The notes beneath the pieces are model-generated. The model was not told where the DNA came from and did no database searches. It saw only the letters and a program-made list of their open reading frames with translations. This document shows positions 9,854 through 42,245 of a stretch of 64,000 nucleotides of DNA, piece by piece. How positions within the stretch are numbered: position 1 is the stretch's first letter; each line of letters begins with the position of its first letter. Where the stretch lies: NCBI GenBank assembly GCA_947568835.1, contig OX387604.1, positions 17,947,076 through 18,011,075 of the forward strand. The letters run 5' to 3'. The stretch comes from Protonemura montana (Eukaryota; Arthropoda; Insecta; Plecoptera; Nemouridae). Made by a program: the position numbers and the translations under genes.

Positions 9854-12800
9854 ATGTTCCTAAAATCAAAATTGAAGAGCTGGTTCTTACAAAGTTCGTT
9901 GAAGGAAAATGGGACAGACGGTCAAATAAATTTGAACAAATCCGGAGCAATGTATGGTAAAATAACTGAAACCATTTCTTATGTGTGACCTGTAAGTATG
10001 TGACTTAAGTTTGGACAGGTATTCATGTTTGAAACATGTGTTTCAGCATCAACCGCCGAACAACAGTATGGACTAAATCACTTCGAACAACGCCACGAAG
10101 AGAAACAACGCCAAAAGGAAGAAGTCGACTTTGAAACTGCAATTTCTGCAGCTGGTAAAAAAGTTATCGTCAATCGAATCTGGGCAGGGCCGACCGCTTT
10201 TTTTGGTTGAAATCGGGATTCATTCGGCCGCCTTTCCCTCTTAAGAAATATATTTTTGAGATTTGTATTAAAAATTAGCTGATGGGGTAGGGGTTTTGCA
10301 TTCTTAAGACAATTTTGAGTCAAGGTTAATTTAGAACAGTCTCTGCTCGTGTTGAGAAAATTCTTGTTGGATTGCATTAAATAGAAGCGACAGCGAGTAA
10401 GCCACTGAACATAGTCAATGAGACCACTGCCGCTCCGGTCATATACGTCACCGTTAAAAATATATTTTTTAACCATTTGTTCATGTTTGATTTTCGTTTG
10501 TTCTCGCTGGACATTTAATTTTGTTTATTTGTTTACGAAGTTTCAAAATTGAAACGGTTATAGCTCATTTGGTGAGTAAGGAGAGATGCATTTGAAAATT
10601 TGCTGATTTTTTAAAACGAAAATACCTCCCTTATAATAATGTCTTTCTGAGCGACCATCAACGTGGCTTATGTCAAAGTCCGGACCTATATCGAAAGTTT
10701 GTGAGAGATTAAAATACAACTAAACATGCCCTATCTCGTTACGAAAGAAGATCAGTGGATGCAAACTCAATAATTGCAAACATTTCGTTTCTCTCCGAGG
10801 TTTTGGCAAGTTCAATTTGCTGCTAATGCTGGCTACGATGCCAGGCATTATGAGCTCTGTATTTGACACGACAGTAGTCTCCTACGTCATGGGCTCAGCG
10901 TCTTGCGAGCTCAACTTATCTAGCCTAGACCAAGGCATACTCAGCGGCATCATCTATGGAGGTAACCAAAGTTTATTCTATCCTGATACTTAGAAACTCG
11001 GATATCTCAAGGTCAGAAGCTCGTAGCATTTCAGGAAACAGACAGCCGTTAGCGATTTTCACAAAGATTCTACCATGTCTCCTTTGGAAAGTAACGTATT
11101 CCTTCGGAGGTATCACATTCGTGAATCCCAAGAATCTTCTGATGTTAAAGTTGACGAAATTACTGCACTTTCAAATGAAATTCATCTTCATCTATCTTTC
11201 CTATCTATTCTATCCAACCTACATATTACATATTTTTTATCCACTGTTCTCCCTCCTGAATTATGACCTTGATTTTGAGTTTTATCTGTAAAACTACATG
11301 ACCTTGCAGGATTTGATATTTAACTGTGGGTGGTCAGCGTTTCCAAGCCTGCACTGAACTTTTTTTTTTTTTTTTTGTGTATGAAACTGTAAATAAGAAA
11401 CTTTTCAACAATTCTGTGTCCTTGGAGAAAAATTAAAGAAGGTGAATATCTTGGGCGATTCTCTGGTTACAGAAGGGAGTTTTACCTCGCCATCTTTCTG
11501 TGCGAAAAAATGGCGTTCTAAACTCATTTTTTGCCGGGGGGGAAATAAACTGGGTTGTCGTTCCAGAAAGAGACATGCGGTTAGCTCCAATCGAAAGAGT
11601 ACAAACTTTGCAACTTTATCTTAATTTAAAGGATTTTAAAAGTGATATTCTAGCTTATATATGGCTCGTATGTAATTCATAACATACCTGGTTGTCCAAC
11701 ATTCACTGAACAGCATGAAATTAAAATCAGTCATTTTCTTTTCGCAACTAGTGCAACCTTTGCGATAGAATCATGGTGTGTTAATAAATCAATCTTAGTT
11801 TTAGAAATACCTTCGTTTATTAGAAGGCAGAAGTCTCGGCGTGATCATGACTTTGCGACATGTTTTATGGGTGCAGTTGTTGACATTGACAGCAGTACTA
11901 TCACTAATGTAGACTTTGTTATTTAATACAAGTATGGCAACACAATTCTGAAGGATTTAAGGAAAAGGTCATTCCGATCCCTTAGATGCTTCTTGTCCTA
12001 AACTCCACAATCTCTTTCAGGGCCAACTCAATCCTCGCCAAACCCTAATATAGAATATCAATTTATCTGGGATCTCAGTTTTATAATACCAACACCATTT
12101 TCGGAAATGTTATCCACTGATAACAAAAGTTATTTTATTTTACTACTACATAACTGTTGTGTAGGTACTTGCACAAAATAATTAAACTACCCAGAAACTG
12201 GCTGGAGTTTCCCTCAATATTAACGCAATGTTTATTTCAGGAATGACTCTGAGTGCTTTTGTCTGGGGCCCTCTGTCAGATTACTTTGGAAGAAAGAACT
12301 TGATGGTGGTCCTTTTCGCCTGCGATGGAATGTGTTGTATCTTAGCAAGCATTGCGCCCACCTTTTGGATGCTCGCAATGTTCAAGTTTCTCGGAGGTTT
12401 CATGTAACTTTCGGTTTATTAATTTGATCTCTTCGCTTTTTTTTTTTCTAATACGTGTCTTTTTTGCAGAATAAGTGGCCCGGGAGCAGCTCTGATTGCG
12501 TTTGTGGCTGAGTACCACTGCGAAAAATATCGATATCCGGCTCTGATGGTGACTGGAATCTACACCTCATTTGGGTTCACTTTGATTCCATGTATAAAAA
12601 AGCATCTTATTTCGAAACTGATTCAACCGCAGCGAAAATACTCTTAAGAAAAGCGTCTTTGAGTGGATATGTTTCGTTCCAGTGCTGGCGTGGTATTTCA
12701 TACCGCAGACCTGGTCAACGAACATCTTCGGACTGATAAACTATAGCCCGTGGAGACTATTCATGACAGTAGCTGCTCTACCCAGCTTGATTGCGGCTAC

Positions 12801-15000
12801 TGTGCTCGTCTTCTTTGACGAAACTCCGAAATTCCTGCTGGCTATTGGAAAGAAAGATGAAGCTCTCAAAGTTTTGCAAAGAGTATACCGCATTAATACT
12901 GGGAGAAATATTAATACATATCCAGTAAGTGAATCACATTTTCTTAGCTTATTTGTCCTTACCCCATGCCACTTAGCCAGTTTTTGAAACTACCTCTTAA
13001 CTTACTAAAAAACAACTCTTGAACGACCACTCTTTTCACGCTTTGTTTCAGAAATTGTCTCTAGCCGGCAGGTTCAGAACAGCAATATCAATCATACCTA
13101 TTCAAGCGATTTAGCCTACACATTTCAGCTAACCATTCTTTCATTTTTAACTCCAGGTACAGATATTAATCGACGAATCGAAAGAAAAGAGAAATGATGC
13201 AGTCTCTGGTGTGCCGGAGAGCGAAATGCATTCCGTCTCTAAAAGTGCTGTTCGGATTTATTTTAATCAAATCAAGCCGATATTTGCGTACCCGAACGTT
13301 CTGAAAGCAGCATTGATTTGCTGTTTACAGTTTACTGGTCTGCTATCGTAAGCAAGTTATTTCCAGTGCTCTTAAAACACGAGATCCCGAAATACAACGA
13401 GCTGTTCAATATTTGGCTGCTCAAACTGTCCTATTGCATTGCTACGTTGCAATTTGGTACATCGACATAATCTCTTTGTTTCTGCATAGGGTGAATATGA
13501 TTCGTTTGTGGCTACCAGAAATGTTTGCATCAATGCAAGAGTTCTCCCTCGACACTGATAATTACACTAACTCGTCAAATATATTGACTATCTGTGATAT
13601 GCTGGGTTCTCTAAATAATCATTCGGAAACGAACTCGAACTTGACTGGCAATGAGTCCGTTGGAATGGAACCGTGTAGTATGGTAAGAACAAATGGCCCG
13701 GCAAACGTCTGAAAGAACAACCCAAATCTCATGAGCTTGCTCTAAAGATTAGTTGATTTTTCAGGGTGCAATGGAAAGTGCAACGTACATAAATGCAGTG
13801 ATCGTTGGAGCTACGGCAACTGTGGGCTACATACTAGGAAGCTGCATCATCAGTTTAATCGGCAAGCGGCAATTGATCGGTAATTTGGAAATAACGTAAA
13901 TCATAACACTCGAAATGACGGTGATTTCATTACTCGGCAACCACAATTTTTGTCCTGATAGTAGTCACTGGTTGGCAATTTTGCAAAAGCAGTTGTGCGC
14001 ATTATTGTGCAACATTAGCGATGAGACTCTGACTAAGCCTAAAAGACCGAGTGGTTCAGAGCTGGTCATGCTAGCTGTTACATCGGGTCTTTGGTCCTGA
14101 AGAGTACCGGGGTATTTGGCGATGTTTCGTCACCGACGGCACTGATATCATCAGGAATTAGGACTGATGGAACGTTTCTTTTTTTCTCTCTTGATAGTCA
14201 AATTAAAATCTTCAATTCGATTGGTACGCTAAATCTAATGTTCTGAATTCTTTTTACAAATATTTTTTTGAGAATGATAAAAAAAGTCTTGTGATGTTTC
14301 TGTCTTTAGATGAAATACATGTCAGACTCTCGTTTTGTATTTACCCTTTTTTCAGCACATAATCTTGTATTTAGCAATTGACAAATAACTTTAAAGTACA
14401 AAACTATAGTCGTTTAAATCTAGTAACATACAATTTAAAGTTTGTCACATCACTCCTAAAAGGTCCGCCATTACTGCAAAAAATGCACAAGATGCACTTA
14501 ATACACGAGCTGTTCCTTACAAATGTTGCAGTGGGTGGGTTCTTCGTGTGCGCGCTCTGTTGTGCGTTCGCCCTCACTGCGTCGGACCCCAACATCACGG
14601 TGGGCTTCTTAGCCGTTTTCATTGCAATCGGTGGCGTTTCAAACCTTGCAATTATAAGCGCGATCGTTGATGTGTTCCCAACGAATTTGTGGTAAATTCT
14701 TTATTATTTCAGTACTACTTGATAATCGTTTACACCATGTAGCATATCTTTATAATTTTAGCATTATATTTTGACTGCAATATTAAGAACTTGTATGTTT
14801 ACATTTTTTCCAGTGCAATGGCTGTGAGTCTTTCGCTTATGTGTGGGCGAATAGGATCATTGATAGGGAGTACCATATTTCCGTTGCTTTTGGAAGTACA
14901 CTGCGAGTTACCGTTTTACGTAGTGTGCGGCATGTGCGCTTTAACATGCATCTTGAGTATAATGCTTCCCGGCGAGAAGAAAAGAGTTAACAAGACTTGA
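9854..15000 (+). CDS. SV2-like MFS transporter A
   Basis: Eleven exons close in frame to 581 residues: 9854-9956, 10047-10154, 10800-10961, 12241-12403, 12470-12591, 12683-12924, 13157-13347, 13490-13682, 13765-13879, 14532-14691 and 14814-15000. The protein has the 12-TM layout of the synaptic-vesicle-glycoprotein-2/SVOP branch of the major facilitator superfamily. Seen are the TM2-TM3 signature WGPLSDYFGRKN, ETPKFLLAIGKKDEALKVLQ after TM6, and a luminal loop after RLWLPEMF with several N-glycosylation sites (NYT, NSS, NHS, NLT, NES). The substrate is unknown; a vesicle or plasma-membrane location is inferred from the family. A shorter start at 10025, with no first intron, would give 554 residues; the two-exon version is preferred because its phases match paralogues B and C. 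The last intron of the family is absent, and an extra intron (13683-13764) splits the luminal-loop region. Confidence 0.85.
10962..12240 (+). other. Largest intron of transporter A
   Basis: Intron of about 1.3 kb between the TM1 and TM2 exons, with donor gtaacc and acceptor tttatttcag. It holds a T homopolymer near 11360-11376 and no recognised element. Open frames within it look like chance. Confidence 0.7.
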
Positions 15001-15197
15001 TGTTGCCATGACTGCATTTCTAAGACAACACCAATCATTGTGGCTGACTCATTCACAAATTTAATTTCGAACTTTTATCAAACTGTTCTGGGTTATAATA
15101 ATTAAAAATTGATTTAGCACTAGTATCGTTTATATAAGTAAACAAGTATAATGATTCTTGGAATACATAAAACAAGAAATTTAAACTAAAAATAATG
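15001..15197. other. Shared 3' region between convergent transporters A and B
   Basis: Only 197 bp separate the stop codon of A (TGA, 14998-15000) from that of B on the other strand (TGA, 15200-15198). Both 3' UTRs must lie in or overlap this AT-rich stretch. No canonical AATAAA is obvious; an attaaa-like sequence occurs near 15101. Confidence 0.8.
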
Positions 15198-18100
15198 TCA
15201 ACTTATTGAGTACGCCTTGACTTTTTTCTGTGCCGATGGTAAGAAGAATCCAAGGAATCCGCAAACTAAAAACCAAAACAACACAGTTTCACATCTAGCA
15301 TACCGCGTATTACAGTTGCTTGACCTCGAAAAAATGAAATGGCTTGAAACTTGCCTAGGACGGTTCCACCAAGAAGGTAGAACATCGAGTTGCACTGAAT
15401 TTCGAGGAGGGCACCAACTAGGAAACTTCCGGTGATCGTACCAACTCTCCCCAGCATCAGCGAGATGCAGACAGCCATCGCTCTATCGGAACCAACATCA
15501 CATCACAAATCACTCTGGCTTGTACCAACCTAACCTGGCTTCAGGGATAGGCACAACAGCTCAAAAGTTCAATCCCTCCTCCTGCCGTTCAACAGTTTCA
15601 ATCGGAACCTAAAAAAAACGAGAGGTAGTATTTGAATGAATTTTGCTTACCTCAGCTGCGTGGGAAAGAGATCTACAACAGCGCTGTTTACTACGCTGAT
15701 GCAGCAGATCGACAGACCCATGAAGATGCACGACAGGATCAGCACGTTGGTGGCTGAGTGGATGAAGTTTATGCCGATTCCAGCAGCGCCAGCAATGACT
15801 AGGCACATTACTGAAACAAGGACAAGACCAGCTCGTCTGTGGCACTTTTTGAGAGATTACGAGATTTCAAGAAGGGAATTAGAAAAAAATCGATAGGTGA
15901 TGTACAATCCTCTACGGAACACTTATAGACGCGCTGTAGAAACGGCTGTGTTTGTCCGAATCCGTTGCGATCTGAGTACGTGCGATGAACTACTCTAGTC
16001 AGTGGGAACACATACATTCTTTGAGGTGTTTAACGACGCACAATTTTGATAACGACCATGTGGCACGTTAATGACGGCATATATTCCTTCGCAACGCGCC
16101 TGTTTTGAAATTCAATGCAGATCTTCCAGCGTACATAAAGTACGCGAAAGTACGCTATAAAGTACACAGCGTACATAAAGTACACAGCGTACATAAAGGG
16201 CCTTGGAATTTGGAAACATTTTCAAAGCAAATGTCAGCTTTTGTTTCTGACGACCCTGGCTTTATTTTAGATTGGGTTCGTATACTGGTGATTTTCGAGA
16301 CATGGCCTTCGAGAAAAAATGCTGGACTTCCCGTATTTTTTTTCCTTGGTTTTAGTTTTTTTAGTGTTAGTAGTTTTTGTGTTTATTGTTAGATTTTTTC
16401 TGGCCTTGCACGTTCTTGATTTGAGCACTGACAATTAGGTGCGATGCTGATTGGCACAGCTTGTAAGTGACCAAAGTTTTTTTGAGACGATACAATAGTT
16501 GCATGTACTTATATAACTTAAAAGTGTATATTTTAAGTGTCACGGTTATAGTTTACAAAATGACCGTAAGGAGAGCCAAGAGGTTATAGGATTGTAAAGC
16601 TATTTAGGACAATTCTCGAACGCGTATACCTTTCTATTCTCGGGGCTAAAGTTAAACCACCTCCGAGGTGGGTATAGGTGGGTACATGTGAAGTTTAATC
16701 TGTCGGAAATTTTGGATTTGAGCAGAGACAGTTTTTGACAGCTTGTTCGCTTTGTTTCGTGTTTTGATTGGTTTCTGTTGGTTTTTGTTGTTATTTGAGT
16801 GATTAAAGTGCGCGTTAATTCAAAGTGTATAAAATAAAAGTTTGTGTTTATTCACTTTCATGATTCTTTAGTTGGGGCCAAGTTATGGAAGTGTTTTTTT
16901 GGTAAGTAAAATTGTCAACCTGACCTAAAATATTTGTATTGTGTTTCTAAATTTTTATTTCCTACCAAAAATTCTTTAACTGTAACATAGTTCATTTTTT
17001 TCCACAGATGGCGGAGGCAGTTTTCGCGGCTGGGATTTTTGATGACGATCCAATTGTTTTTCATCGCATGAGGCTAGCTGATCTGACAGATCGCTACCTG
17101 CTCATTTGCTGCCACGCCAACATTGATCAAGGTGGCCGAAAGCTAACCATTTATGTTACCACTTCGTTTGGCCACTTCAGCTGCTAGCACTCTTTGCTCA
17201 GCATCAGTAAAATTGGGGCTCCGGTCCTTCTTTCAACAGTTATCGAATTTCCCGACATTTTTTGAACAGTTTTGATATTCAGAAATAAATAGGCGCTCAA
17301 ATTTTGTTTTACATATAATGTTTGCAAGTAGGCAGTGACCGAAATTTGAACCAAAGCCACCATATCTTTTGAATGGTCTGATTGGTTGGTTCAAGGTTGT
17401 AATGGAGGTGGCGCTTAGTTAACACTATCCAGCTGGTTATAGCTTAGTCCCGCGTTAACTCTGCTTCGTGAATTGTCCAGGGTATAAAGTTATACGTAGG
17501 GGCTAAGGTCGGACTAACTTAGCTTGGGTATAGAGAGGTATAGCGAAATGTACGTGAATTGGTCACCTGGAGATCATACTGGAGTCAACGTAGTCTGCAT
17601 AAGTCAACGAATTGTGTTTCGCAATTCCATACCCAATTCTGCACCAATATACCTGAATGGGATCAGCTCACGGTATGCAGTGAGACTATAGTTTTACTCA
17701 CTTAGCAAGTTCTTCTTGCCCATTATGTTGATGAGAGCGCCCATTACGACGAACACAGCAGCGGTGGAGAATCCAATAATTAAAGTGTTTTGGTAAACAA
17801 TCGGGTCCACAAACGAGCTGCATTCATCGATGTGTGGGTTATAACCATCTGGTTGAATATCCCCGCTGGCTGTTTGATTCCAAGGTGTGTAATTTCTTTT
17901 TGTTTTATTTAGCATCATTTCGTCGATTATTTCGCACACTGTAAATCCATGGTTTGGGTGTTCGTTGGTATACTCGGTGACGCGATTAAAAATCTCAGGA
18001 AGCCAAAGCGCCAGCCCGTTTGAGCTGTAAACAATTATTATTTTCACTATAGAACAACGAGCGGATAAAGAGGCGTCATCCCTTGGTTGCGAGAATTGGG

Positions 18101-21100
18101 AGAGAGGGCAGCACTGAAATGGGAAAATAAGGTGCAAACACGTACAAAACCAAGCTTGGTAAAGATTATAAAAGCAGCAAAGTGAAACAAACAGAAAGTA
18201 TCTAGAAACTATAAACGTATTATCCGTTCGCTTGAAAGTAAAACTACCAAAATAACGGCACAGATGCGTGGATAGATATCTGTAACCATAAATACATTCT
18301 ACAGTTCAATAGCAAAGTGATTACAGATATTTATTTTAAGTATACCCTTCCGTGTTTGGGAAATAATCAGGCCAAATTTTATAATAGAATTTTATGGGAC
18401 TCTGATATTTCTTGATTGAAATGATTTCCTAGAAAAAATCCGGCCACTCAGTGACAAAATGTGGGCATGCTATACCTACTAGTTGCCAAAATTAAAAAAA
18501 AAAAAATATATATATTTTACCAAAAGAAAATGCCGAAGTCGAGTGCACTGGCCAGTATGGTGCTGGTCAGGTACGGAAAGGTGAAAAGTGGTTGCGTCTG
18601 GTTCCACATCTTGCTGACAACCAAAGACAGTTTAGTCTTTCTGACTGCAAAGTCGTCCGTCAGATTTCCAGGCAGCAATATAGTCACGTTCGCAGGTTCA
18701 CCCTCAGATACAAGCGCCTTCACCTGTTGAACAAATCACTTGGAAAGTGCTCTAAAAATATTTACTTAAATACTTCCCATTTGGTTTAATTTCTTACAGG
18801 ATACGTATCAGGTGCTTTGCCTGTGTTGACAGTATACATCATTCTCAAAACTTGTAACGCTTCTTCTTCACGGCCAGCTGTCAATAAGAACTTTGGGCTT
18901 TCAGGCAAAATTATCAAGAAAATCAACCCAGTTATTAAACTAGGCAATGAACATATTACAATAAAGAACCTCCACGAGTTATAGGTGAACCAGGGAAGTT
19001 GGAAACTCCAAGATTGTGGTAAGACGAGCCAGGATAACCCTGTAGAAAGAAAACTGAATTATAGCTATTCCGTTTTTTATCGGGAAACCGTGAAAGTATT
19101 ACACGTTGCGAAACGTATATTACCCACCTGGAAGTCCAGTCACCCCCAGTGCAACAAATATGCCTGAAAACATAATGGCTCGAGTCCGGGTGGAGCTAGT
19201 GTGAAACTCTCCTAAATAAGCATACATAACAGCTCCTGGTCCGCATATACTGGAAAAGAGAGAAGTTTAAAAAGTCATGTTTACCCATATATTTTCTTCT
19301 CAATTCTCTCAAATACGTGCTCTTCTCGACGGAATTTTGAATTGCCTTTCGAGCTACAGCATGGAGATGTTACTTTCCGTGTACTGTTTATTTAAACAAT
19401 ATTCAACGTTATAACTGACGACATGGAGCTGGCCACGGTAATAGGGCAATTGGGAATCAAGCCTTGTATAAAGTTCTCTTTAGGGTATTCCAATACCGTA
19501 TCCAGTGACCTTTAAATGCCTCTAGATGGATTATTAAAGATACTCTGTATGGTGAGTTGAAGTAGAATTTCCGCTCATCACATTCACGTCCCAACAAATG
19601 GTGGCCAGTGGATGTGAAATTTCATTCACAATTTCATTTTTTACCTTTTCATTCCTACACATTTCAAGACACTATGTATAATCTATGTAATCAGACTTAC
19701 AAGAATCCATTAAAGAAACGGAAGACAAGTAGAACTTCAAACGTTGGCGAGAAACTGCCGAGTACGCCACACATAAAATCGAGAAGTAAAGTTATAATGA
19801 TAATTTTCCTTCGGCCCCTTGTGTCAGCGAGAAATCCCCACAGGTGAGAGCTCACAATCATACCTAAAAAATAACTGCAAATGACAAAGTGCAAAATTCT
19901 GCAAATGCGAAATAACAGCAAATGAAAGCTTTTACAACGTCTTAAAAGAAAAGGGACGTTTTTGTAAAAGAGTAAATAACTGTGTCAAGCCAAGAGTGGA
20001 CGCAGATTTGTAGATCACGTCTTTGGCATTTTCCAATTCAGCGCAAAGTTACGAAGGTTTTAGATAAGAGATAATACAATTGAAGCGGGTACCATATTTA
20101 TATGTTATAGTCGCTGTGAAAAAAAGATTGCATTGCTTTGAAAACAAGGCCCATGGTGAAGATTTAACGCATAGTTTGTTTTTATTTCATCAGTGACCAC
20201 AATTTCGGTTCATGTAAACCCGTATTTTTATTTTTTTTTAAGAATAAGGATTCTGATCTCAAGACTCAGCTCATAATATTTTAGTTAATTTTACTGCACT
20301 TTGTTTAGTTTCGGGGTGTGATGTGAAAACTAATAAAAACGCTTCGAAAAAAATCGTGATCGCTTTATGAAACTAATTCTATCCATTGTGAACCTTCGAT
20401 TTACCTAGAAAGCAGCTGGAGCTGAGCAATCCTTTGCTGGCGGTGGTAAGCTTCAAGTCGCACTGAGCCGACGGGATCAGGTATCCTGGTATCAAAGTCA
20501 CGATAATCATGGCTAGCAGGCACAATCCGCACGCAAGGAACTGAAGCAAGTGGAACTTTCCCAGACCTTCACGTAGAAGACAAAGCAAAGGGTCAGAATT
20601 TAACCAGGAGGGCCAAAACTCTGGAGGTAGGGAAAGTAGCTCGACGATCCCATGGTCCGACTTACCAGTAAGTCCAACAGCCTTTTCAAACTCCACTCTG
20701 TAATCAGCATCCTTCTCTGTGGAAACAGGACTTTCTAATAAAAATATAACATCTTTCAAGCGTGCTCAATTTTATCGTTAGTATGGTTTACAAATCGATT
20801 TAAATTTAGCCTAACAATATGTAGTAAGTAGTAGTAATATAGTTTAATGTAGTAATTAGTAATATATTTCAATTTAAGATTGCCTCCGATGCGGCTGCAG
20901 GAGATATAAAAATCAGACCAGCAAATAATTTAACAGTTGGTGTTCAGTGTCCGCTACAAAAGCCAATATTTGCATTGATTTTTGGGACGGCCAAATTATT
21001 TCACAGATATTTTTTATTATCATTTGTATTATTTTGTCACTGGGGGCAAGTTTCAAGGTTTAATCTTTGCTTTGTTTAATCAATCGGCCGTTTGTGATTC

Positions 21101-22139: not shown

Positions 22140-25100
22140 TCAACAGTTCACGTTGTAGACGTTCTTCGGTTTTCTTGTCGTTGGGAAGAATCCTGCTAAG
22201 ATGCTGCAAACTGCAATAGAAAAAGAAAACAGCTCTAATTAATTACATTATTTGAAACATTCTTCCAGGTTTCCTTCCAATGATCTAACAAATAAAATAT
22301 GCAAAGTAAATCGGTTTCGGTGTGACTTTGTTGGGGTCATTCCAAATGTACCGAGAAATAATTAACAATTTTAGAGCCGCTACCGCAGACCGCTTAAATG
22401 TTTGTGGGAATCCTAAACAAACGATATGTTGGAACACTCCATGTCCATCAATTTCCATAACTGTAACGTTTAGCATACGCAAGGATTACAAACTAGCTAG
22501 CACAATATGGCATACTAGTCATGGCTAGCTTTCAGTTGTTGGGTTTATGACGTTTGTTTTCACTACTCCGAGTAAGGAAGAAATGTTTACCTAAAACTAC
22601 GCCGCTCAAAACGAAGAATGCCGAGGCACAGTTGAGATCTAGAAGAGTGCCCATGAGGAGCGATCCAAAAACCGTCCCAAGCCGGCCAAACATGAGTGAT
22701 ATGCAGACTGCCATCGCCCTGTGAGACAATCGAATGAACGTTCAAGACTGGCAGATACAGCTAGAGCGCCTGAAATACCTGAAACATCTGAAACACGTGC
22801 ACAAAAGATGTCCCCTGCTCTTCCGTGTCAATCTTCACAATCGTTTGTAGTTTTGTTACAATTCATATGGTCCATTTCGCCATATACTTACCGAAAGATA
22901 ACATTTTGTGTTGTTACCCGCCTTTTTTCCTGTCTCACCCATAAATATTTTGCCTACATTCTTTTTAGATTGAACGTAAAGAAAAACTAAGTGAAATGCT
23001 AAACATAGTCAAACTATTTTCCCAATGCTGCGATACCCTGCTTTGGAACATCGTAGCAAAAGAACGTACTAGGGAACTTCTCTAATTATTAATCAATAAA
23101 TTAATTTTTTTTAGCAAGTATTTCTAGAGATAATGCTTTAGCAGTGTGATAACGTTAATTTAGTGACGAATACAATTTTTTTAGGATAAGTTAGATCAGC
23201 TGTTACGCTTGCTCAAGTTACTGGTATAAGCTACGAACCAAAAAAAGAAACGTTTTGATTTTATTTGGGATTTGTAGTCAAGTTTGAATTTTTTTTGACA
23301 AATAATGCTCAGGATGCTCAGGACAATTAGTGCTCAATATGAGTAAAAGGCACAGCAAAGAAAATGTGCTTGCTGATGACTACCTGCTTTTCAATGCTTG
23401 TGTACTTAAGGGGTCATTTGAAAACTGACTGTTCAGCAAGGAATACCTGAGATGTGTGGGATACACGTCTATGACTGCGCTGTTCAGCACACTGATGCAG
23501 AGGCCCGAAAAGATGACGAAACTTGCTGACAAACTTGTGATAGCGATCTTGCCCCAGGCGAAGTAAAGACCGATCCCTGACGACGCCGAAATAAGCAAGC
23601 TTATCACTGCAACGTTCAACACTGAAATCAGCTGGCGGGTATCTCTGACGCAATCTAGGCATACATAGGAAAGTAACTGACCTAAAATTGCATCAATATG
23701 TAGTTTTGCACTTACTTATTATTAAAGGTTTCGGAACTATATTCACTATAAATCCGACAATAACATATGCGACCCCAGATCCAAGTCCCATGATCAAAGC
23801 ATTCATGAATGCAGCTTGATCAACAGTTGAGACACAAGGAGGTTCAATTTCTTGCAGTGGTAACAGCTCATATTGACTACTGAACACTAAGTCCGGACTT
23901 TGGTTCGAGATATTGAACACCAATTGGTTGTCATTTACTGAAAAATGATACATCGCTCTGATTTCCAGCCCATTTTCATTCGATGGCACTTCCAATGTTG
24001 ATAACCTTGAAATCATTTGGCAAATTGGAGCAGAAGAGTTGGGGTACATTGATTCGTATTCTGCTTGGCGATTGAAAATATCTGGTACCCAGAGTACGAA
24101 ACCATTGCAGCTGTAAAGATAGAAATGATTTACGTGTACACTCAAGCATTGACGCCAAGTGGGTTTTAATAAAAGTGCAGTAAAGTTTACCCGTCAAAAT
24201 CAGTACCCTACCTCGTGTAGAGGCCAAACTGTATCGCGCAAGCAAGGAGCGTTGCCCTCAAATGGGACTTTTGAAAGAGAGGCGCCGTTTGGTCGTACAT
24301 CGTTTTTAAAAATGCTAGTTTATCTTTAGAATCAACTTCCCTCACTGGCGGAACAATTTCATTTGGATCCACTTGAAGTTTCTTCACCTAAAATAAAATA
24401 AAAAAAAACGAGCTTGTTTTATTATGCGAAACATTTCCATTTTCGTATTTAAATGAAAGAATAATAAATGTACAATTACCGGGTAAGTCTCAGGATCTTT
24501 TCCAGTGTTCATAGCATAAACATATTGCAAAGCTTTCAACGCTTTCTCTGGATTACCCCTTGCCAGTAAAAATTTTGGACTTTCAATTAAGACAAAACCC
24601 AAGAGAAACGCTGTAAAAATGCTAGGAACTGAGCAAAATAACACAAATATTCGCCAAGATGTGAAGGTAGTGTGCCAAGGCATTTCAAACGCCCAGTCTT
24701 GTGGAATGACCAGCCACGCCAGCGCTGGGAGAGCAATCGTTCCGACACAGAGTAACGTACCGGCCCAAATAATCACCCTTGTCCTCGTTGCTGCTGGGTG
24801 GAACTCCCCCAGATAAGCGTACACAACAGCCGATGGACCACATATGCTGCAAACGAAAATTATTCTTAGTAATTACGTTTTTAAGTGAGTTATCTCCGAA
24901 AATAATATTCTTAGTATTCTTATTCTTTCGTCCGAACACGTTTAAGTTTTGATTCTCTCGTATGAACGAGCGTTGCCCATACGGCTTTATTAAGCCTCAA
25001 GGTTTAATTTCATCTTAGATAATTTAAACCGTCTCATGTGAGATATGACACTGATGTTGAGAAACGATGGCAAAAGTAAGCAAGCGAACAAATAATTCTT

Positions 25101-26199
25101 ACAAAAACCCATTGAGAAATCTACAGAAGAAGAAGAATGCATATGTGTGAGCAAAACTAGATATGATGGTGATGGTTGCATCCAAGCATGTTGTTAGAAG
25201 CAGAATATTTCTTCTGCCCTTCGTATCAGCCAAAAATCCCCATAAAAATGAGCTGGCCATCATTCCTGAAAGAGAATGTGATCGTTAGACCCACGTTCTT
25301 CTAAGAGCCACTGCAACCGCAATTACCTCTATGGTCCGCGGTGAGGAGATTATTTGTAATTCTTCGAAAACGTTCCGGCAATAGTAAGCTACGAAAACGA
25401 AGTAAATTTTCATTTTCTTTTAACGGAAAATACACCATGTTGGAGAGAAAAGTCGACAGCTTAAATTACCGAAACCTTCACCAAAATAGTGATAAATGGC
25501 TTCGGGCAATTTAAGCGATGTATGGTTTGATCCTTCATTGATTGTGATTTATGAGCGTAATTATTTTACCTATGAAAAGCGCCGAGTTTAGTAAGCCCTT
25601 TTCTTCGGAAGACATGTGGAAATCGCACTGTGCTGAAGGCAGTAAATAGGAAGTGTTTAGGGAGGAAAATATCAGAGAGATGAGACAGAACCCTGCCCCG
25701 AGCAGCAGGACAGCGTGGTATTTTCCATGCCCTGAAATCAGCATAGAGTCAACGCTCATACATCAAATTAACCAATAGTCTGTAGAAAGATCTGATTATA
25801 AACAATGTTTTAGTAAATTAAAATTTTCTTTACCCGTTAATGCAATAGCGTCCTCAAAATAGACTGCTTTTTCTTCTACAATTTCTCCAGCAGGATCTGA
25901 AATTTTATCATCCCTTTTTAACTCCTTAGATCCATTTGACCACTGTTTTATTGATTGCGTCTTCTTTATGCATTAAAATATTAATTGAAATAACATTGCA
26001 TTATAATATTAATTGCAAATGAAAACCGTACATATATCAGTCAGCATTACGTTTACTAGTGAACATTTTAATGGCGAGGTAGTTTACCACTGGTTGTTTT
26101 CATTAATGTATTATTATATTTTATTAACGAATTAATTAATTTAATTTGATTAATCTGTTTGATTGAGTATTTACCTGTCACTTTCCCTGCAGTAGTCAT
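22140..26199 (-). CDS. SV2-like MFS transporter C
   Basis: Ten minus-strand exons encode 569 residues: 26199-26175, 25896-25834, 25731-25570, 25265-25103, 24846-24480, 24387-24212, 24110-23716, 23606-23447, 22718-22591 and 22210-22140. Landmarks: FEDAIALTGHGKYH leading into TM1, SSFLWGFLADTKGRRN in loop 2-3, LIESPKFLLARGNPEKALKA after TM6, and a long luminal loop after FVLWVPDIFNRQ with NSS, NIS and NQS sites. This is the same family as A, B and D, with unknown cargo. The intron that separates the 122- and 242-nt exons in A and B is missing, leaving one 367-nt exon. The luminal-loop exon (395 nt) is the longest in the set. The first exon has exactly the length and phase of that of B, which supports a recent common ancestor or a conserved start. 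Confidence 0.88.
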
Positions 26200-27745: not shown

Positions 27746-27891
27746 ATTTATTAATCAATTAATCATCTAAATTGTTCTCATCAGCCTTTCCTAGGACAGA
27801 AATCATAACTTCACGCACAAGCCATATCGTTACGTGGTGTAGTGCCTACGATTAGCAAAACAACCGCCTCATAGGTATCACGCAATCCATT

Positions 27892-28074
27892 TTGACCAAG
27901 GAACCATCCCACCCCGACCACATATGCATTGTGTCTACACCTAACATTCAGGTCTCTCCAGATGTTGACGGTCTATTAGGCATCGATTTTTTCGACCAAT
28001 TTCAGGCAATTCTCGATTTTAAAGAACCGCCACGAAAACCCAAGATCTTGATCAGCATATTGCCGGTGCACTGA
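27892..28074 (+). pseudogene. Retrotransposon aspartic-protease (retropepsin-like) fragment
   Basis: A 60-codon open frame contains DGLLGIDFFDQFQAILDFK, which resembles the second conserved block (I/L-L-G-x-D) of retropepsins in LTR retrotransposons. The catalytic D-S/T-G block, reverse transcriptase and integrase are not seen nearby, so this is a detached relic. The assignment rests on one short motif. Confidence 0.45.
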
Positions 28075-28859
28075 AATATGATGCCGCTGAGTCCGGGCAG
28101 CGTAACCATAGTTAACCAGAGCGACTAGAGTTTCCCGACTAAAAATTGTATCTTGGTTTTTATTTCAGTAGACTCTGGCCATTTATGAGTGGTGTCTCAT
28201 TTTTTTATTGTGCAGAGCATCTTAAGAGACCTTACTGGGCCCCCACCGATTTTCATTCGGGCTACAAGTCAACCAATAGTAAAATTATTTAGGGATTATG
28301 TCGTTCCAGTCATAAATGTATCTTTATGTGCATTTTCTGTTTTAAAATAGCATGTCTTTTTATGAGTTGACGAGGGGGGGGGGGGGGGGGGCACGGAGAG
28401 ATAGAGCACGGGGAGATATGAGACATGGAACTTTTTGAGCTAATCCGCCCCTGATGATTCAGTGTGTGCGACGCGTTGTCTATTGGAATTCCAAAGTATG
28501 TGAGCAGAAATGTACCCTGTGAATTCATTAGTTCATATTTTCGAGATCAGCTTATGATGTCAGTGCAAGAAGTTTTCGTGTTATTTTTTTAATCATTGAA
28601 TGTATCTTATGACTGAAGCTTTGGTCTTGATAAAAATTCAGAGAAAAACTTTTGAGACATGAGAACTTACTGCCCCTGGAAGTCCCACCGCTGGACGCCA
28701 ATTGTGACATAAGAGCCTTTTCTATCTCCTAATACCCACCGACTGGAAACTTTTACTAACTATAATTATCTTTGAGCGTAAGATCTTTAAGCAAGATAAT
28801 TGCGTTCCAATTCTTCAAAAAGGATAATTCTGTTTCTGTGTTGTACCCACTACAGAGCT

Positions 28860-29050
28860 TCACCTTGGTGCACATAAGGCACGGCTCGACGCCCATAGAG
28901 CACGGTTACACACCCACACGGCGAATAAACACCCAGTGGGCACGGCTATGCACCCATAAGACGAATATACGCCCATTAGAGGAAGGATGAAACACATGCC
29001 CCTAGGGAAAATATACGCCATAGAGCATACATGTGCCTCTAGAGCGAACA
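28860..29050. repeat. Degenerate ~28-bp tandem repeat
   Basis: Variants of cacggctatgcacccataag and acgcccatagagcacgg recur every 25 to 30 bp across about 190 bp. No coding frame is conserved across the units. Confidence 0.65.
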
Positions 29051-29611
29051 TGCAACTATAGGGCGAAAATTAAAAAATATGCCCTTCAGGCATACAGTCT
29101 TCTACTTGTACTCACCAAGCCCCAGCCCCTTATTGGTTTATTGCAAAAAAATACATGATTTTCACTTGGTATGGGCGGTCAGCTTCTTTGACTTTTCTAG
29201 TGCGTTTCTTATCATCCCATTTCTCATCATACTCATCTCCGTGTTTTGCACAAGCTGATTGGTTCAAGAGTCTTTACTAGACACTGATAGACTTATTTGT
29301 TGATCTTTGTGTCTTTACTAGACCCCGCTAGACTGTATTGCTAATTGTATGTGTCTTTCGTGTTACTTAGCGCTAATACTACTTTTCCTACCTGTTTCTC
29401 AAATGTATACTTTCTCACTGTCAATCCTGGCTTCATATACCCTTATCATTCTAACGAGACCTGATGGTTCACTGCTAACCTTTACATTTCTATCTGCCCT
29501 GAATTCTGTACAAACCTGATTTTTGACAACACTTTTTCCGGAATGCTGGTTATCTCCCACGCCACTATTTAAAAGTTCACTGCCTTTTCCAGTAAATCGG
29601 TACGTCGTCGG

Positions 29612-29812
29612 CAGGAACCCTAGCAGGAACACTAGCAGGAACCCTAGCAGAAATCCTAGCAGGAACCCTAGCAGGAAGCCTAGCAGGAACCCTAGCAGGA
29701 ACCCTAGCAGGAACACTAGCAGGAACACTAGCAGGAACCCTAGCAGGAACCCTAGCAGGAGCAGGAACCCTCGCAGGAACCCTAGCAGGAACCCTAGCAG
29801 GAACCCTAGATG
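29612..29812. repeat. 12-bp minisatellite (GGAACCCTAGCA)n
   Basis: About sixteen copies of ggaaccctagca, with variants such as ggaacactagca, form a regular array with one 6-bp irregularity near 29760. Because 12 is a multiple of three, several frames stay open on both strands (NPSR.., FLLG..); these are not genes. Confidence 0.92.
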
Positions 29813-31100
29813 GCTGCCAATGTGACATTGTTGCCTTGCCTGCCTACCTTGTCAGTCTTGGTAGCCTTGCGTGCCTGCCTTGCCAGCCTCCCTGACCAGC
29901 CTCCCTTACCAGCCTCCCTTACCAGCCTCCCTCGCGACCTACGTAAAGCGCAAGAGTCTGCTATCGATTGGCTTAAGTCTGGCGTTGAGCTGGAGAGTGG
30001 GCGGTTGGAAGGGGGGGGGGGGGGGGGGGGCGCTTTGCCACTCTTCTAACGATTTTTCTTACCCCCGCCACTCACCATCGACAACCGTCGTTACTTCTTC
30101 TTCTTGCTGGAGCCCTAATATCGAGCAATTGTCAACCTTCCCTAAGACACATTTTTAGCACGGAATTTTAATTACTGTGGGTATAAGATTTATAATTAAC
30201 GCGTCTTTTAATTACTGAAATTTGCTCGGTTCGATCAATCTCTGAGGTTAGAGTAAAGCAAGAGTAAAGGATGAACTGGGAAGGAACGTTTTTTGGTAGT
30301 TTTGGCAGGCTACGCTGCCTAGGCCTCCCAGGCTAGACGTTGGATCCTCTTCGCGAGGTATATTCTCCTGATGATATGGGATCGTGGAAAAGCACCGATC
30401 TCTGGACCTATCCGATGAAAATTCAAAGGACATTTTTGAAAATTTTGCACTTGCAGCTCAATCTGCTTTCTTGCAGACAACCAGCTTTGTTGTACGCGCA
30501 CAAATGGCATTTGAACAATTTAAGTATGTGTGTGGGGAAATGTATACTGTGTAAATGCATGAAAAACTGTTCGGAAAATTGTGCTTGCTTTTTTTCTAGT
30601 TTTCCAAATGATTGAATGTGTTGAGACGAAGGTGTGAAATGACGTGATCTTCTCGGTAATAGACGATGTTATGATAATATATTAAGTAGACCAGCATTAA
30701 TAGCAAGGCTTCGAGGAAGTTTACACAGGAAATCCAGACATTCAAACTGACAATAAGTCATCAAAGAGCTTTCAATTAACAGAATTTTAAACACCTTTGT
30801 TAAATTTGTAAAACGTAAATATCGCTGCTGCTACAAGGCTCGTATTCCTAGAATTTATATCACCTTATCTTATTTCCTACTTCCTAATTATATAACAATG
30901 CAATTACAATTATAGAGTGCGATCATATTGCGATTTTGTTAAACATTTTTGTCACTAATGTCGTATGACAGGAATATTGTTTTCTTTAGACACGAAAGTC
31001 ACAAAGTTCAGGGTAAGGTTTAGCTCATTAGCTAGCCACGTGTGATGAATGGGTATTTAGCGGAAAGCGCGCTCGAGTCTCTTGCCTGTTGACTGTCACA

Positions 31101-31145
31101 CGTCCCAGGGAGCACTCCACACTGCGAGCGTCGTTCGCGAAACAG
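31101..31145 (+). other. Probable 5' UTR exon end of transporter D
   Basis: A GC-richer stretch ends in aaacag|gtaaga, a strong donor at 31146. A matching acceptor (ctcaatttccag, ending 31458) sits 63 bp before the start codon of D. Together they imply a non-coding first exon and a 313-bp UTR intron. The transcription start is not located. Confidence 0.5.
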
Positions 31146-31521
31146 GTAAGACTTTCTCATTACCAGTGAAAAAGTTAATCGATTTATTAGTGCTTCTTGT
31201 CGCCCTTGCGGTGTTGAGCCACATTAAAAGTTGTCACGAAGTAATATAAATATGGTTTGTTGACTACGAAAGTGTTGAAGGTATCTAGCGTGATGAGATA
31301 TTCGGTATTCCACAGAGAAACCTCCTTTTTAACAATCAACAGCAGGCTTACAAGTCAAAGAAACTGTTTTTCTTCATTTTAAGCGTAGATTTTTACTAAT
31401 TTTAATTTCCGCCCTAGCTTTGTCGCTGCTGTCCGTACATATCCGGCTCAATTTCCAGCTGAAACCTCGAAAAAGCAAGAAAGGAGAAAACAAGGATAAG
31501 TTTGGAGAATTTTCGTGAACG

Positions 31522-34500
31522 ATGGCGCAAACTCCCGTAGAGAAAGAGATGCTGAACGCAGGTGATGCTGACCGTGCCATCGCTCTGACGGGTAAGACCT
31601 TCTGAACTCACGACAGGGAACAAATTGCCAAAACAAATTGCCACAGCAAATTGCCAAATATATGCAAATTATCGATTTTTTTTTTTTATAAGAGACTTCA
31701 ATAATTTTTTTTACTCGACAACTTGTATTGCCAAAATGTCTATGTGATTTTTAATCTAGACTTTAAGCGGCTTTGCGAAATATAAGCTTGGCATTGGAAA
31801 TTTGTCCGCTTGCTCTTTGTCTGAATTACCCTAGCCATTTTCTAGTGCATTACATTTTCGTATAGGATTAACTCTGCTGGCTCCAAGATAAGCTCCTAGA
31901 TTTAATTAGGAAGATTGGAATTCCTCCCGTATTAAATAGTTTTAGCGTGTGAAATACTCCCATGGGTGGAGGGGGAGGGGATTCCATTTTTAGCATACTG
32001 ATAAGAAAGTGTTCTATTTGTGAAAAATTCCAACCGCACATGATCACAGAAGTAAAAAGATAGACCCATGTCTGTGCGATCCTCTCACACAAGTCGCCCC
32101 CCCCCCCCCCACATCTGAAAGGCATTTGTGTAATGAATGGGACACAACTACGATTTTCCATAACCATACACCATAATGAGATATTCAGGTTTATACCGAT
32201 GAAATTGTTGTAGGCAGGCTCCAAAACGAGCGTAGAATCGGGAACGTCTCCCACCAGTCCTTTTATACCTTTTCAATAAAAACGTTCTTGCACGTGCCTG
32301 CCAGTCTATCAGCTGTTCACTAGGCATTGCGTCACCCTGCGTCGGCTTACAGTCATTGTTCGGCTTCTGGTTCTGGCCGGAATTGAATGTTTTTCAACTC
32401 GAGACCGGGAAACAATCAAATGACGCTCTTCTAGGTTCATCAGCCAAATAAAATTGCATTAATTTTATCGCTTATGATGAGTAATTAAGTAAAAGAGAGC
32501 ACTATGTTTTACGATTTGAATTTAAAAACGCTACTTAAAAAATAGCTTTGGCGACTGTGAAAGGAACGATATGGTAAACCTGAAACTATATTGGCTATCA
32601 CATTTTTTAGTGGGGCTAGACAACAAATTTTGACAGATACCCGATTTTCGGACTTTTGTATGTGCTTAGGAGCTTACATAGCAGGCATTTCCCTTCCCTT
32701 AATTTTGATAATTCGCTTTGGCCGAACGGTTTGGGCACACCGGTTCTCATGAGAGCACCGAATTTAAGCAACACTGCGCTGGTATTGAATAGGTGACCAA
32801 CTTACACACGACTAATTTTGTTTGGGAGAAAGATTGAAGGGATGCAAGTTAGTTCAGCAACTTCATTCGCCTTGCTTACCAACCTCTCGGGGGCATACAT
32901 TTATGTTTGTCGGTGGTCCCCTTGGTGCTCTTCGACTCGAGGCTATGTGCCGGCGCCGGGTTTCCCCTCCTTCTTCCTAGGCTCATCGTCATCATCCACT
33001 CATTCACCGACACCATTAGTCCAGTGCCATATGACCCGGTATCAAAACAGTGCGTCGTTAAACCTCACTAATCACTGAATCAGACATAGGGTTTGAATAA
33101 ATCGTTTATCTTCCAGCGTTACAAGTTTGTGCCATGTCGTGTCTTGCCTTCGCGTTGTGTCACCTAGTATAAACTAAACCTCGTGATTTTGGGATTTTAT
33201 TTCATTCATTTGTACTATTGGTTTTTATTTTGATAGCAGATTCTAGCCGATGTTGAATCAAAGTCTTCGGATGTCATATAGCCATTCTATCGGACTTCAA
33301 AAATTTTTATCTTGCATATTTTATTCTCGAACTCTGGCAGCACGATATAATCCACATGGTGAATCACATATGTTCATTGAGATAATCTCTTTTCTGTGCA
33401 GGAAATGAGTAACATATGTGTCATTGGCCATGTTTTTATATTGGTATTTACAGACCACTCCATTCTAGCCCAAATTTAAGTCGTCAAAGGCCTGCCATAG
33501 GCCCAAAGCCCTACAATAGGCCCTCCAACTCCCAAAATATGTCCATTGTCGTACAATAGGCTTCAAAGCCCTACAGTAGGTCGTCAAAGCTATATAACAA
33601 AGCCCTGAAATAGGTTCTCAAAGCACTCCAGTAGGTCCTCAAAGCCCTACTTAATAAGAACTTAAAACACTACACTGGGTCCTCAAAGCCCTGCAATATA
33701 CCCCAAAATTTCAACTAGACCCCGAAGATACAATTGAGTCTTAAACCTCTCACACCAAAACATTGACTCCAAAGTCATGAAAAAAGAGTATACTCTTTAC
33801 GATCAAATGACTCGTTAATGTCTTCTTATTTCGTGTTACATCGTGTGGTGTAGCGTAGCTTTGTGCGGTATCGTGCAGTCTTCTGATATCGTGATGTCGT
33901 TTTGTCATGTGTTCTTCAGGCCGAGGCAGTTTCCAGCTGCGCATTGCCCTGGTATGCGGAGGATGCTTCATGGCCGCTGCCTTCCAAAGTGGGCTCAACT
34001 CGTTCGTCCTTCCTGCGGCTCGCTGCGACCTGCGCATGACCTCGGAGCAGATGGGCACTCTCAAGTACGTACGGCCTATCAGGACAATGCGTCTCCACCC
34101 AGAGCTAGAAACGCGATGTAGCTTGCTTTTTACAGGCTATGCAATACAATCCGTTTGAATGGGATTTTCCTAAAACCTCTTCGTGACAAAAATAGTTTTC
34201 CTTCCCTTCAGGAGATGTTCTAAAGAGATTACATGGTGCTAAAACACGACGCGTGCCCTGATGTTTTTCGGATTTAGGAAGCGTTAGGCCTCGGAGTTGG
34301 TTAGCCTTCGGTCAAGAGATAGAAACGTTAACGAACGCATTGTGTTTTCAAGTTTTCCCAAGTGCTCCAGCGAGCTGGGTCTAGTTGCAGAGAACTAGGG
34401 AATGGTCTCTTTGAAAAGATTCGATTGATTCTCCCATGCCTCAATGAAAATTAATTAGATAAGCAGACTAGCGGCGATTGAGGTTGCGACGGGAGCAGGG

Positions 34501-37500
34501 GCACCGGAGAGTTACAGGAAGATTGAAAGTTGGATGTTGTAGTTCTTTGTTTCTCTTTTTTAATCAGCGTTGCGTTCATGTTGGGAACCATTGTCAGCTC
34601 TTTCTTGTGGGGAGCTCTCGCGGACATGTGGGGTCGCAAAAAGCTTCTTCTAGTAACTTTCTTGCTCGACGCTGCCTGCACTGTCGCCTCCAGCTTCTCA
34701 CAAACCTACGTGGTTTTCCTCGTGTTCCGTTTTCTCAACGGGTTTATGTAAGTTCAAGAATGAATTAAATTGCCTAATCCATATTTGTGCTGCAATCAAC
34801 CGATCAACCGAATACATATTTCTTGATGGATGCAGCATTGGAGCACCGTGCAGCCTTATCATTCCTTACTTGGGAGAATTCTTCACCAATAAGCAAGGAA
34901 CCATGAGTAGCTGTGCCGCAGGCTTCTTTTGGACTTTAGGTTGGATGGTTCTACCAGGTAAATATGACGGTACTGATACGTACTTGGATTTACTTTGGCA
35001 TCTTAATGCCTCACGAGACATATTTTTTAGTTTAAACCAGTTATTACTGCTCCCTGCCTGTTCTAACAAGTCTTGTTTTGCTTTTAGCTTTTGCTTGGCT
35101 GATCATTCCCATCGAATGGAGCATAAATATAAACGGATTTGTTTACAATTCCTGGCGAATTTTTGTTTGCGTTATGAGCCTCCCATGCCTTCTTGCCGCT
35201 TTTACCTTGTCGTTTCACTCGGAAAGTCCGAGGTACCTTCTTTCAAAAGGAAAGCTAGACGAAGCAATGCTCGTTTTGGGAGAAATGTACTCAAATAATA
35301 CGAACAAGCCAGCCTCCGACTATCCTGTGGTGTTTAGCAAGTTGCCCGTGGCTATTGAAAATGAACCCCCAAAGAATGTCGAACACTCCAAGGAGGCAGA
35401 GACAAAGAATCCTAAGTCACCTTGGACTTTCGCGAACGTGTTGTGGAAACAAGCAATTACTTTATTCACACCCCCGATTTTGAGGAATGCTCTTTTGGGC
35501 TCTGGTCTGCTCTTTACGAACATGTTTGGGTAAGTTTTAAATTTTCACCATACGAAAGTTTCTTAACAGCCACCAAAGCATGACAACATTTCAAGCATTT
35601 CAAATATTTTGTTCACAGATTCTATGGTTTGGGGCTCTGGCTCCCGGAATTATTCAATCGTTTCCAGTCTTTCTACCAACTGCATCCAAACGCATCAGCT
35701 GTCTCTGTGTGCGAATTGAACTCTCTGGTGGTGCCATCCCCTTTGCTTGGGGCGCTGGGTGCAAATGCGACGACCGGGCACAGTGCAAGCAGCGAGTGCA
35801 ACAGCGCCCCAATCGACCCGACAGTATTCATCAACACTCTCACGATTGGCGCGGTCTGTCTTTTCGGAAACCTTCTCAGCGGACTGTTATCCGGCACGTT
35901 CCGCCGCTGGGTCATGCCAGGTCAATATAATATTTCATCGTACAATTTCCTCGCCCGGCCATATTTCACTTTCGTTTCTTTACTAAAGTGACTTCTATAC
36001 GTGGCTATAAAACTAATGGCGTGTTGTAAAAGGGCGTCATCAACCCTTAAGCGAGAGCTGTTACCCACAACTCACACTCAATACTCAAGAGCAATTAGCC
36101 AATTAAGGGTACAAATGTTACAGTGTCCACCATGATGATCGCTGGCATCTCTGGACTGTCAATCTACTTTGTCAGCAACTCGACAGGAATATTGGTCGTC
36201 ACCTGCATTTTTCAAGCTGCGATCAGTTCGGCGAACTTTGTCATTTCTGGAAACCTGGTCGAAGTGTTCCCAACGAATATCAGGTGAGTATTTACCAAAC
36301 TGTCCTCATTACAAAAAGGAGAGGACTCGTTTGATAAAAATAAAAACAAAGAAACCTAGAGAATGCAAACACAATTTCAGTACACATCACGAACAAGGGA
36401 GGACTTGGAGTTTTCACGTTGGAAACTGAGTTTAGAGATAGAGTGAGCTGAAAATAAATAACACTAATCACGTTATGGTTTCGTTGGTAAACAAAGTTGC
36501 CAGGAATACCATACTATTCTCAATTTACTATGAATGAGAAAAATGTTAACCAAGCAATATTCTTTTGAAAAAAGCATGCACTTTTAACTCTAGGAAAAAC
36601 CTAGCTATGACAGCTTTGCCTACAAGTGCTCTTCCATGCCAGTTAAATTGAATCGAGCATTGGCGCAACTTTTGCAGAAATCCTTCCGTTTCACAGAACG
36701 CTGCGTCCATATCTGCACTTAAAACAGAGCTCGCATTTTTTAGCTCGCATGGAAAAACTTCCGGGGAAAATGTTTTCACCCTGCTGGTGCTAAAATATGC
36801 TTTAATAGTGGGTCAGGAATTTGTTCAGATATTTCTTCTGCCTCAGGGCTCTGGCGCTGTGCACTTGCATGCTCTCTGGTCGGCTAGGCTCGATCACTAG
36901 CAACGTGCTGATTGGAGAATTAATCGACGTGTATTGCGACATACCGATTCTACTCGTCGGCGGAACGGTTGTATGTACGTACACATTAAGTTATATTAAA
37001 CAGCCTCTGTGTGTTAAGCACCCTGGCACCGGCCAATGGCCATCTGGCCAATAGTGGAGTTGTCTGCAAAAACACTGCTTAGATAACAATCCATGGCAAC
37101 ATGGAATGTTTGGTGATGCACTGCCAAGTAATCTTAACTTTACACAAAACTGTTCTGCCCCCCCCCCCCCACTTCCCCCACTCCCCCCGTAACACACTCA
37201 CCCAACGCCTTAATCGGTAATCCAACACCTCCCAAACTGAAGACTATTGAAAGTCGTTAGTGCTGTGATGTGTTGGGTTGGATAAGGTTGGATTATTTGC
37301 TAAAACCCTAAAAGCACTGCTAGCAGCACGCGTCGAAGTCTATCTATGTTTCCGATGCCATGGTTTCTCACAGCGAAAAGTTGCACTCTTAATAGGATGA
37401 GAATTCTGAGGAACATTTGAAGCCTCCTTTAGGCCAGGCGACCTGTTTTAGGCTTAAAACGAACCCTTAGTGAAACCGGAGTTTCCCATTAAGTGGAGAT

Positions 37501-38035
37501 AGGCAATTTAAAAAAAAAAAACGTCCCATGTGAATTTAACCTGGTAGTTTCCATTCCAATAAGATATACTCATGTCAGTCGCTAGTTTATTGGACTGGCC
37601 TTCCGAGCTCAAAGCAGGATATAATTTTCTTGCATCTACCAAAAAAACTAGTCGTGTCCTTAAATTCACCGACTAAACATTCACTGATATATAATGTGAT
37701 TGAAGCATAAATAAAACTAGTCGTATTATACAGTCTGGGAATTGTTTCTTATCTTGAAGAACAATAACTAGATTCATAGTAGTCAATAATTAATTATGAT
37801 GTAAGTAATAAACGTATCGTGCATAATTTGAATTAAGCCAGACTGGTCCATAAAAACTCATCACGGAAACTTTCAACGGAAACTTAATAAAAGATCAGAA
37901 CATATTCTTCGACGTAATATGCGGACTTATATGCAAAAAGAGAAAAGTTGAATTCTTGTTCCAGTTGGTGGTTTTCTGGCGATTCTCACGCCAAGTGGAG
38001 ACGAACCTGAGCCTCAACAGGAGAGAGAAGTCTGA
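31522..38035 (+). CDS. SV2-like MFS transporter D
   Basis: Nine exons encode 539 residues: 31522-31591, 33920-34064, 34568-34747, 34836-34957, 35088-35529, 35619-35920, 36124-36283, 36847-36974 and 37965-38035. Landmarks: RAIALTGRGSFQ at TM1, SSFLWGALADMWGRKK in loop 2-3, SESPRYLLSKGKLDEAMLVL after TM6, and GLWLPELFNRFQSFYQ before a luminal loop with NAS and NAT sites. The last exon adds an acidic, Gln-rich tail ending in GDEPEPQQEREV. The family is SV2/SVOP; substrate unknown. The intron that follows the conserved Tyr-Pro in A, B and C is lost, giving a 442-nt exon. The first TM-region intron sits 17 nt upstream of its place in the paralogues and in a different phase. A polyadenylation signal (aataaa) lies at about 38337-38342. 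Confidence 0.88.
32731..33072 (+). mobile_element. SINE family R1 with 5S-like head and internal deletion
   Basis: The head reads caccggttctcatgagagca, then gaatttaagcaacactgcgc and a ggtattgaataggtgacc box, matching the 5S rRNA internal control region. The body follows (ggatgcaagttagttcagca, cttcctaggctc, cagtgcgtcgttaaacc). About 60 bp around the usual gttgtaccgtccttcg segment are missing, so this copy is internally deleted. Confidence 0.8.
33480..33740. repeat. Degenerate ~21-bp tandem repeat (GGTCCTCAAAGCCCTACAGTA)
   Basis: Variants of aggtcctcaaagccctac recur roughly every 20 to 25 bp over about 260 bp in intron 1 of transporter D, ending about 180 bp before its second exon. Confidence 0.75.

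Positions 38036-41872: not shown

Positions 41873-42245
<373 letters not shown>

Follow-up and report, generated by a model that had tools for sequence, protein, structure and literature searches.

Four SV2-like MFS transporter genes in Protonemura montana: a probable old cluster with one member on another contig

Four spliced MFS transporter genes, here called A, B, C and D, occupy 10.0-38.0 kb of a 64,000-nucleotide stretch of the Protonemura montana genome (the window, C16:17947076-18011075; the assembly comprises 258 Mb in 34 contigs), in the orientation +,-,-,+. They are probably best explained as an old cluster of SV2-like (SLC22B-type) MFS genes, built by local duplications and inversions, of which one member is found on another contig. 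The evidence comes from the divergence of the four genes, from their place in a tree with the related genes of the same genome, and from the residues and luminal loops of the predicted proteins.

Locus and Gene Models

Models of the four genes were assembled from open frames and splice sites and are predictions without transcript backing. Splice choices were made by a simple matrix ranking, with near-ties settled by alignment to the sibling genes. The resulting features, in window coordinates, are as follows.

10025..15000, + strand: gene A, coding for an SV2-like MFS transporter of 554 aa; 10 exons, first ATG coding exon at 10025
20765..15198, - strand: gene B, coding for an SV2-like MFS transporter of 563 aa or more; model of 10 exons, lacking the start exon
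25972..22140, - strand: gene C, coding for an SV2-like MFS transporter of 586-591 aa or more; model of 9 exons, lacking the start exon
31522..38035, + strand: gene D, coding for an SV2-like MFS transporter of 539 aa; 9 exons, the first at 31522-31591

A and B lie tail to tail with ~200 bases between them, C follows B on the same minus strand, and C and D stand head to head. The introns of the four models are GT-AG in 33 of 34 cases and GC-AG in one, and no model contains an internal stop. The weakest junction of B is that from exon 7 to exon 8, and one splice acceptor of B is weak; exon 7 of gene C can be joined at acceptor 23621 or 23606, of which alignment length favours 23606. By a crude hydropathy count A, B and C each have 12 segments; D has 13, with the additional peak in its luminal loop.

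The preliminary description had seen four complete 12-TM genes of SV2 type in 28 kb, oriented +,-,-,+, and the array can indeed be rebuilt as spliced, uninterrupted models. Completeness holds for A and D and not for B and C, whose start exons were sought and not found; twelve segments are recovered in all but D. The lengths given there (539-581 residues) agree roughly with our models, and its starting point for the array, position 9854, is unsupported.

Pairwise protein identity among A-D is 29.7-44.8% (44.8% for B versus C), and blastn among the four genes at 1e-5 returned zero DNA-level matches, which together exclude recent duplication and uphold the earlier judgement that the array is old. 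When the whole genome was searched with A, B, D, the C4 gene C4b and the model of the SV2 gene, every match inside the window was a piece of A-D. That some of the copies are pseudogenes in decay, or duplicates produced by the assembly, is very improbable: the start exons missing from B and C and the weak acceptor in B would fit such an origin, but the frames are free of internal stops, the splice sites are canonical, MFS motif A is present in all four products, and the copies share no DNA-level similarity.

Elsewhere in the window, positions 400-1005 (-) cover part of a gene for an animal haem peroxidase (66.5 bits with PF03098), and 52478-57628 (+) holds carbonic anhydrase exons, of which 57221-57628 scores 63.6 bits (cut-off 27) and 52478-52750 scores 18.9 bits, below that cut-off. 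Simple-repeat tracts at 29400-29900 and 41712-42290 give rise to long spurious open frames.

Family Membership

All four window proteins match Pfam MFS_1 (PF07690) at 98.5-108.3 bits (98.9 for A; cut-off 33.4), and all four retain MFS motif A between TM2 and TM3, in keeping with the earlier remark that family motifs are conserved. In the PDB the best match of each is SV2B, with SV2A next (SV2B E-values of 2e-36 for A, 4.2e-42 for B, 1.1e-43 for C and 1.3e-51 for D), and the best SLC22 chains are far weaker (4.6e-11, 1.1e-13, 2.2e-8 and 4.6e-11, respectively). A partial gene B query (235 aa, made of second-half pieces) failed to find any relative in the PDB at E 0.01; the full B model matched.

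Against the NCBIfam model for SV2 (TIGR01299), A, B, C and D score 121.9, 152.4, 167.3 and 196.0 bits, all below a cut-off of 637.3 that is strict enough to fail the SV2 model of contig C11 as well (504.8). The NCBIfam organic cation transporter model (TIGR00898) gives 150.4-173.2 bits, also under its cut-off in every case; A, B and C score higher with it than with TIGR01299, and D the reverse. The LD_SV2 luminal domain (Pfam PF23894) is absent from all four window proteins, which are therefore classed as SV2-like and not as SV2. As judged from sequence, A-D are MFS transporters related to SV2 but not SV2 proper. The SV2/SVOP label first attached to them is thus sound as to the relation, SV2B being the best PDB match in four of four, but too narrow: the gene with LD_SV2 is found on C11, outside the window, and a further, SVOP-like gene on C5.

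SV2-Like Genes Elsewhere in the Genome

Genome searches returned at least three further SV2-like loci: C4:13.83M (C4a), C4:12.13M (C4b) and C11:9.08-9.09M. The C11 gene (C11:9075864-9093398) carries LD_SV2 at 59.5 bits (cut-off 29) and is the sole place genome-wide above the cut-off, a stretch on C3 reaching 23.4 bits and so falling below it. In a control, one of 14 prokaryote genomes also passed, so the domain model alone is no proof of SV2. The luminal stretch of the C11 product, of pentapeptide type, has PDB matches to SV2A/B/C, the best at 2e-31. The whole model scores 504.8 bits against TIGR01299, aligning to positions 157-739 of the 742 in the profile, below 637.3; C4a scores 262.4 bits. 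Taking tree, luminal domain and residues in combination, we regard the C11 gene as the SV2 of the Protonemura montana genome.

A gene at C5:14.79M, presumably SVOP-like to judge from its C-terminus, is 18-21% identical to A-D over its modelled second half. Two TIGR00895 matches (on C1 and C2) considered as SVOP candidates were set aside as sugar-porter-like by reading of the sequence, not by test, and weak matches of the SV2 search at C16:1.235M, C5:3.72M and C1:29.36M were judged sugar-porter-like from their open frames. Contig C4, which is chromosome-scale, also holds COX1 copies (C4:5760925-5762262 and C4:5776811-5777755), one of which scores equal to the mitochondrial contig C34; they stem either from insertion into the nuclear genome or from an error of assembly. 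A contig of 15.9 kb carries COX1, and there the succession nd2, cox1, a spacer of roughly 65-70 bases and cox2, together with a Gln tRNA encoded on the other strand, matches the gene arrangement of insects and crustaceans.

The C11 gene agrees with a statement, in the available text of PMC7934909, that SV2 has been reported in most organisms examined, and not with a 2017 review whose available text describes SV2 isoforms as not yet found in invertebrates (PMC5438990). A literature search for arthropod SV2 luminal orthologues, with all terms required together, found nothing.

Phylogeny and Origin of the Cluster

The trees sample Protonemura montana genes and two partial human sequences (SV2A/B), nine rows in all, rooted on SV2. 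The C5 row was omitted from the nine-row trees for its long branch and half length and serves as outgroup in a ten-row tree. A, B, C, D and C4b form a single clade (100/99 in the nine-protein tree) that excludes C4a and SV2. Within this clade A is sister to C4b, on contig C4, at 100/100 (100/99 and 99/98 in the two protein halves), so A-D form no exclusive clade. An A-D-only clade is rejected on the whole alignment (log-likelihood 37.7 lower, AU p 2.1e-6) and in each protein half (AU p 0.0073 and 0.00046); since the two halves concur in pairing A with C4b and in rejecting an A-D-only clade, the result is not masked by conversion between neighbours. D is the earliest branch of the five-gene clade. 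B and C group at 89/89 (64/72 in the first half, 82/87 in the second), A, B, C and C4b at 96/92 (69/76 in the first half), and a clade of B, C and D is disfavoured (p 0.034). We are less sure of the branching order inside the five-gene clade, the first half by itself giving no firm order among B, C and D.

The C11 gene groups with human SV2A/B (98/99 and 100/100), with A-D and C4b outside and C4a beside. In the ten-row tree, which takes the SVOP-like row as outgroup, the branch that parts C4a and the five-gene clade from SV2 has weak support (76/76); that row covers the second half only, is provisionally named, and has a branch length of 2.57.

These placements retain part of the local expansion first proposed, as A-D all fall in one five-gene clade, and remove its exclusiveness, as C4b belongs there too. 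Within this genome and the two human sequences, the four genes were not seen to pair with different single-copy orthologues outside SV2/SVOP. The apparent age and clade limits of A-D are accordingly those of one genome and two partial human sequences.

It is also conceivable, if unlikely, that the four genes became neighbours secondarily, as old paralogues of separate origin brought together by rearrangement and not by tandem duplication. The closest relative of A on another contig, the rejection of an exclusive A-D clade, the low identities and the mixed orientations all agree with such a history. Set against it, A-D lie within a single five-gene clade to which C4a and SV2 do not belong, and in a genome of 258 Mb four of five members would hardly come to lie within 28 kb by chance. 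In the preferred account, that of an old cluster grown by local duplication, the starting gene, on a lineage beside that of SV2, would have undergone several local duplications, with inversions, and C4b would most likely derive from a dispersed duplication of the A lineage. Duplication in place is suggested by adjacency, and A itself may have been moved in.

Intron positions were compared across seven modelled genes. All seven have introns at 162 phase 2 and 363 phase 2, and six of the seven at 604 phase 2; all three positions are also found in the SV2 gene of this genome, which makes them ancestral, and shared introns were dropped as proof of tandem duplication for that reason. The column at 501 phase 0 is found in A and C4b alone (2/7). 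An intron of D at column 102 phase 2 is near but not identical to one of SV2 at 102 phase 1, and was given no weight.

Residues, Luminal Loop and Function

Residues are numbered as in human SV2A by way of the alignment, in which the letters at these positions correspond to the numbering of PMC11026379. The SV2A cavity set (W300, Y461, Y462, I663, W666, D670) is kept in full by the C11 gene (6/6); C4a keeps four residues, D two, B one, and A, C and C4b none (0/6). Among A-D, W300 is present in D only, and W666 and D670 in none. The TM1 acids at D179/E182 are both present in C11 SV2 and C4a, one remains in A and in C4b, and B, C and D have neither. The luminal TM7-TM8 loops of A-D measure 60-91 aa and contain two cysteines and 2-5 sequons each. 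According to the available text of PMC11026379, W300 and W666 mutants do not rescue transmission, the D179/E182 double mutant loses synaptic localisation, and the transport function of SV2 is not settled. In yeast deficient in hexose transporters SV2A restores galactose growth, although PMC11026379 observed no binding of galactose.

A rival view is that A-D are lineage-multiplied co-orthologues of vertebrate SV2, working on synaptic vesicles. SV2B is the best PDB match of all four, all four match TIGR01299 (under the cut-off), and insect SV2-like proteins have been proposed as synaptic regulators in the available text of PMC2374702. The tree contradicts this view by joining the C11 gene, which has LD_SV2, to human SV2A/B (98/99 and 100/100), and A-D lack both that domain and most of the cavity residues; we consider it distinctly improbable.

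Given the residue changes and the retained motif A, we take A-D to be putative working carriers with an altered substrate site. The cavity replacements would fit solute transport unlike that of SV2 and probably outside the synapse, and the lost SV2A cavity residues would be consistent with the non-synaptic roles suggested for the array at the outset. Each product, motif A being kept, would be a 12-helix alternating-access carrier of the plasma or an organelle membrane, with a short luminal loop that is probably glycosylated and closed by a disulphide. With a substrate site unlike that of SV2A, such carriers may move small organic solutes, in tissues wider than synapses (gut, Malpighian tubule, glia or similar). 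We put forward tentatively, at somewhat less than an even chance, that A-D and C4b constitute an arthropod subfamily beside SV2 in which the substrate site has been rebuilt and the role of SV2 is no longer performed.

If this is in fact the case, the set and the C11 SV2 (luminal domain, 6/6 residues) would help to tell the requirements of the SV2 fold from those of synaptic SV2. An SV2 with its luminal domain and six diverged paralogues (A-D, C4a and C4b), which have lost the SV2A cavity residues to varying degrees, provide natural variants for weighing the importance of individual residues. The array itself is an ordinary old family expansion.

Comparison with Known Systems

Expansion of SV2-like genes in insects has already been published, as the available text of PMC2374702 indicates; it is known in outline, and A-D would be further members of that kind. 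The accessible table of PMC4231875 lists Drosophila CG3168, CG12783, CG31103 and CG33233 as SV2 or SLC22/SV2, with Yes for CG3168 and No for CG12783, CG31103 and CG33233 in a column presumed to give CNS expression, and the available text of PMC7358622 names CG3168 as the fly orthologue of SV2A-C.

A-D resemble SV2A/B/C (SLC22B1-3) in the twelve-helix MFS plan, in motif A and in the three introns common to the SV2 gene of this genome. They differ in having no LD_SV2 pentapeptide luminal domain, in a loop of 60-91 aa versus 127 aa in C11 SV2, and in the replacement of most of the cavity and TM1 acidic residues. With SVOP/SVOPL (SLC22B4-5) they share an MFS transporter plan without a large luminal domain, but the genome has a separate, presumably SVOP-like gene on C5, 18-21% identical over the second half. 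Compared with SLC22 (OCT/OAT), A-D match TIGR00898 at 150.4-173.2 bits, under the cut-off and, for A, B and C, above the SV2 model, whereas their PDB matches to SLC22 are far weaker than those to SV2B.
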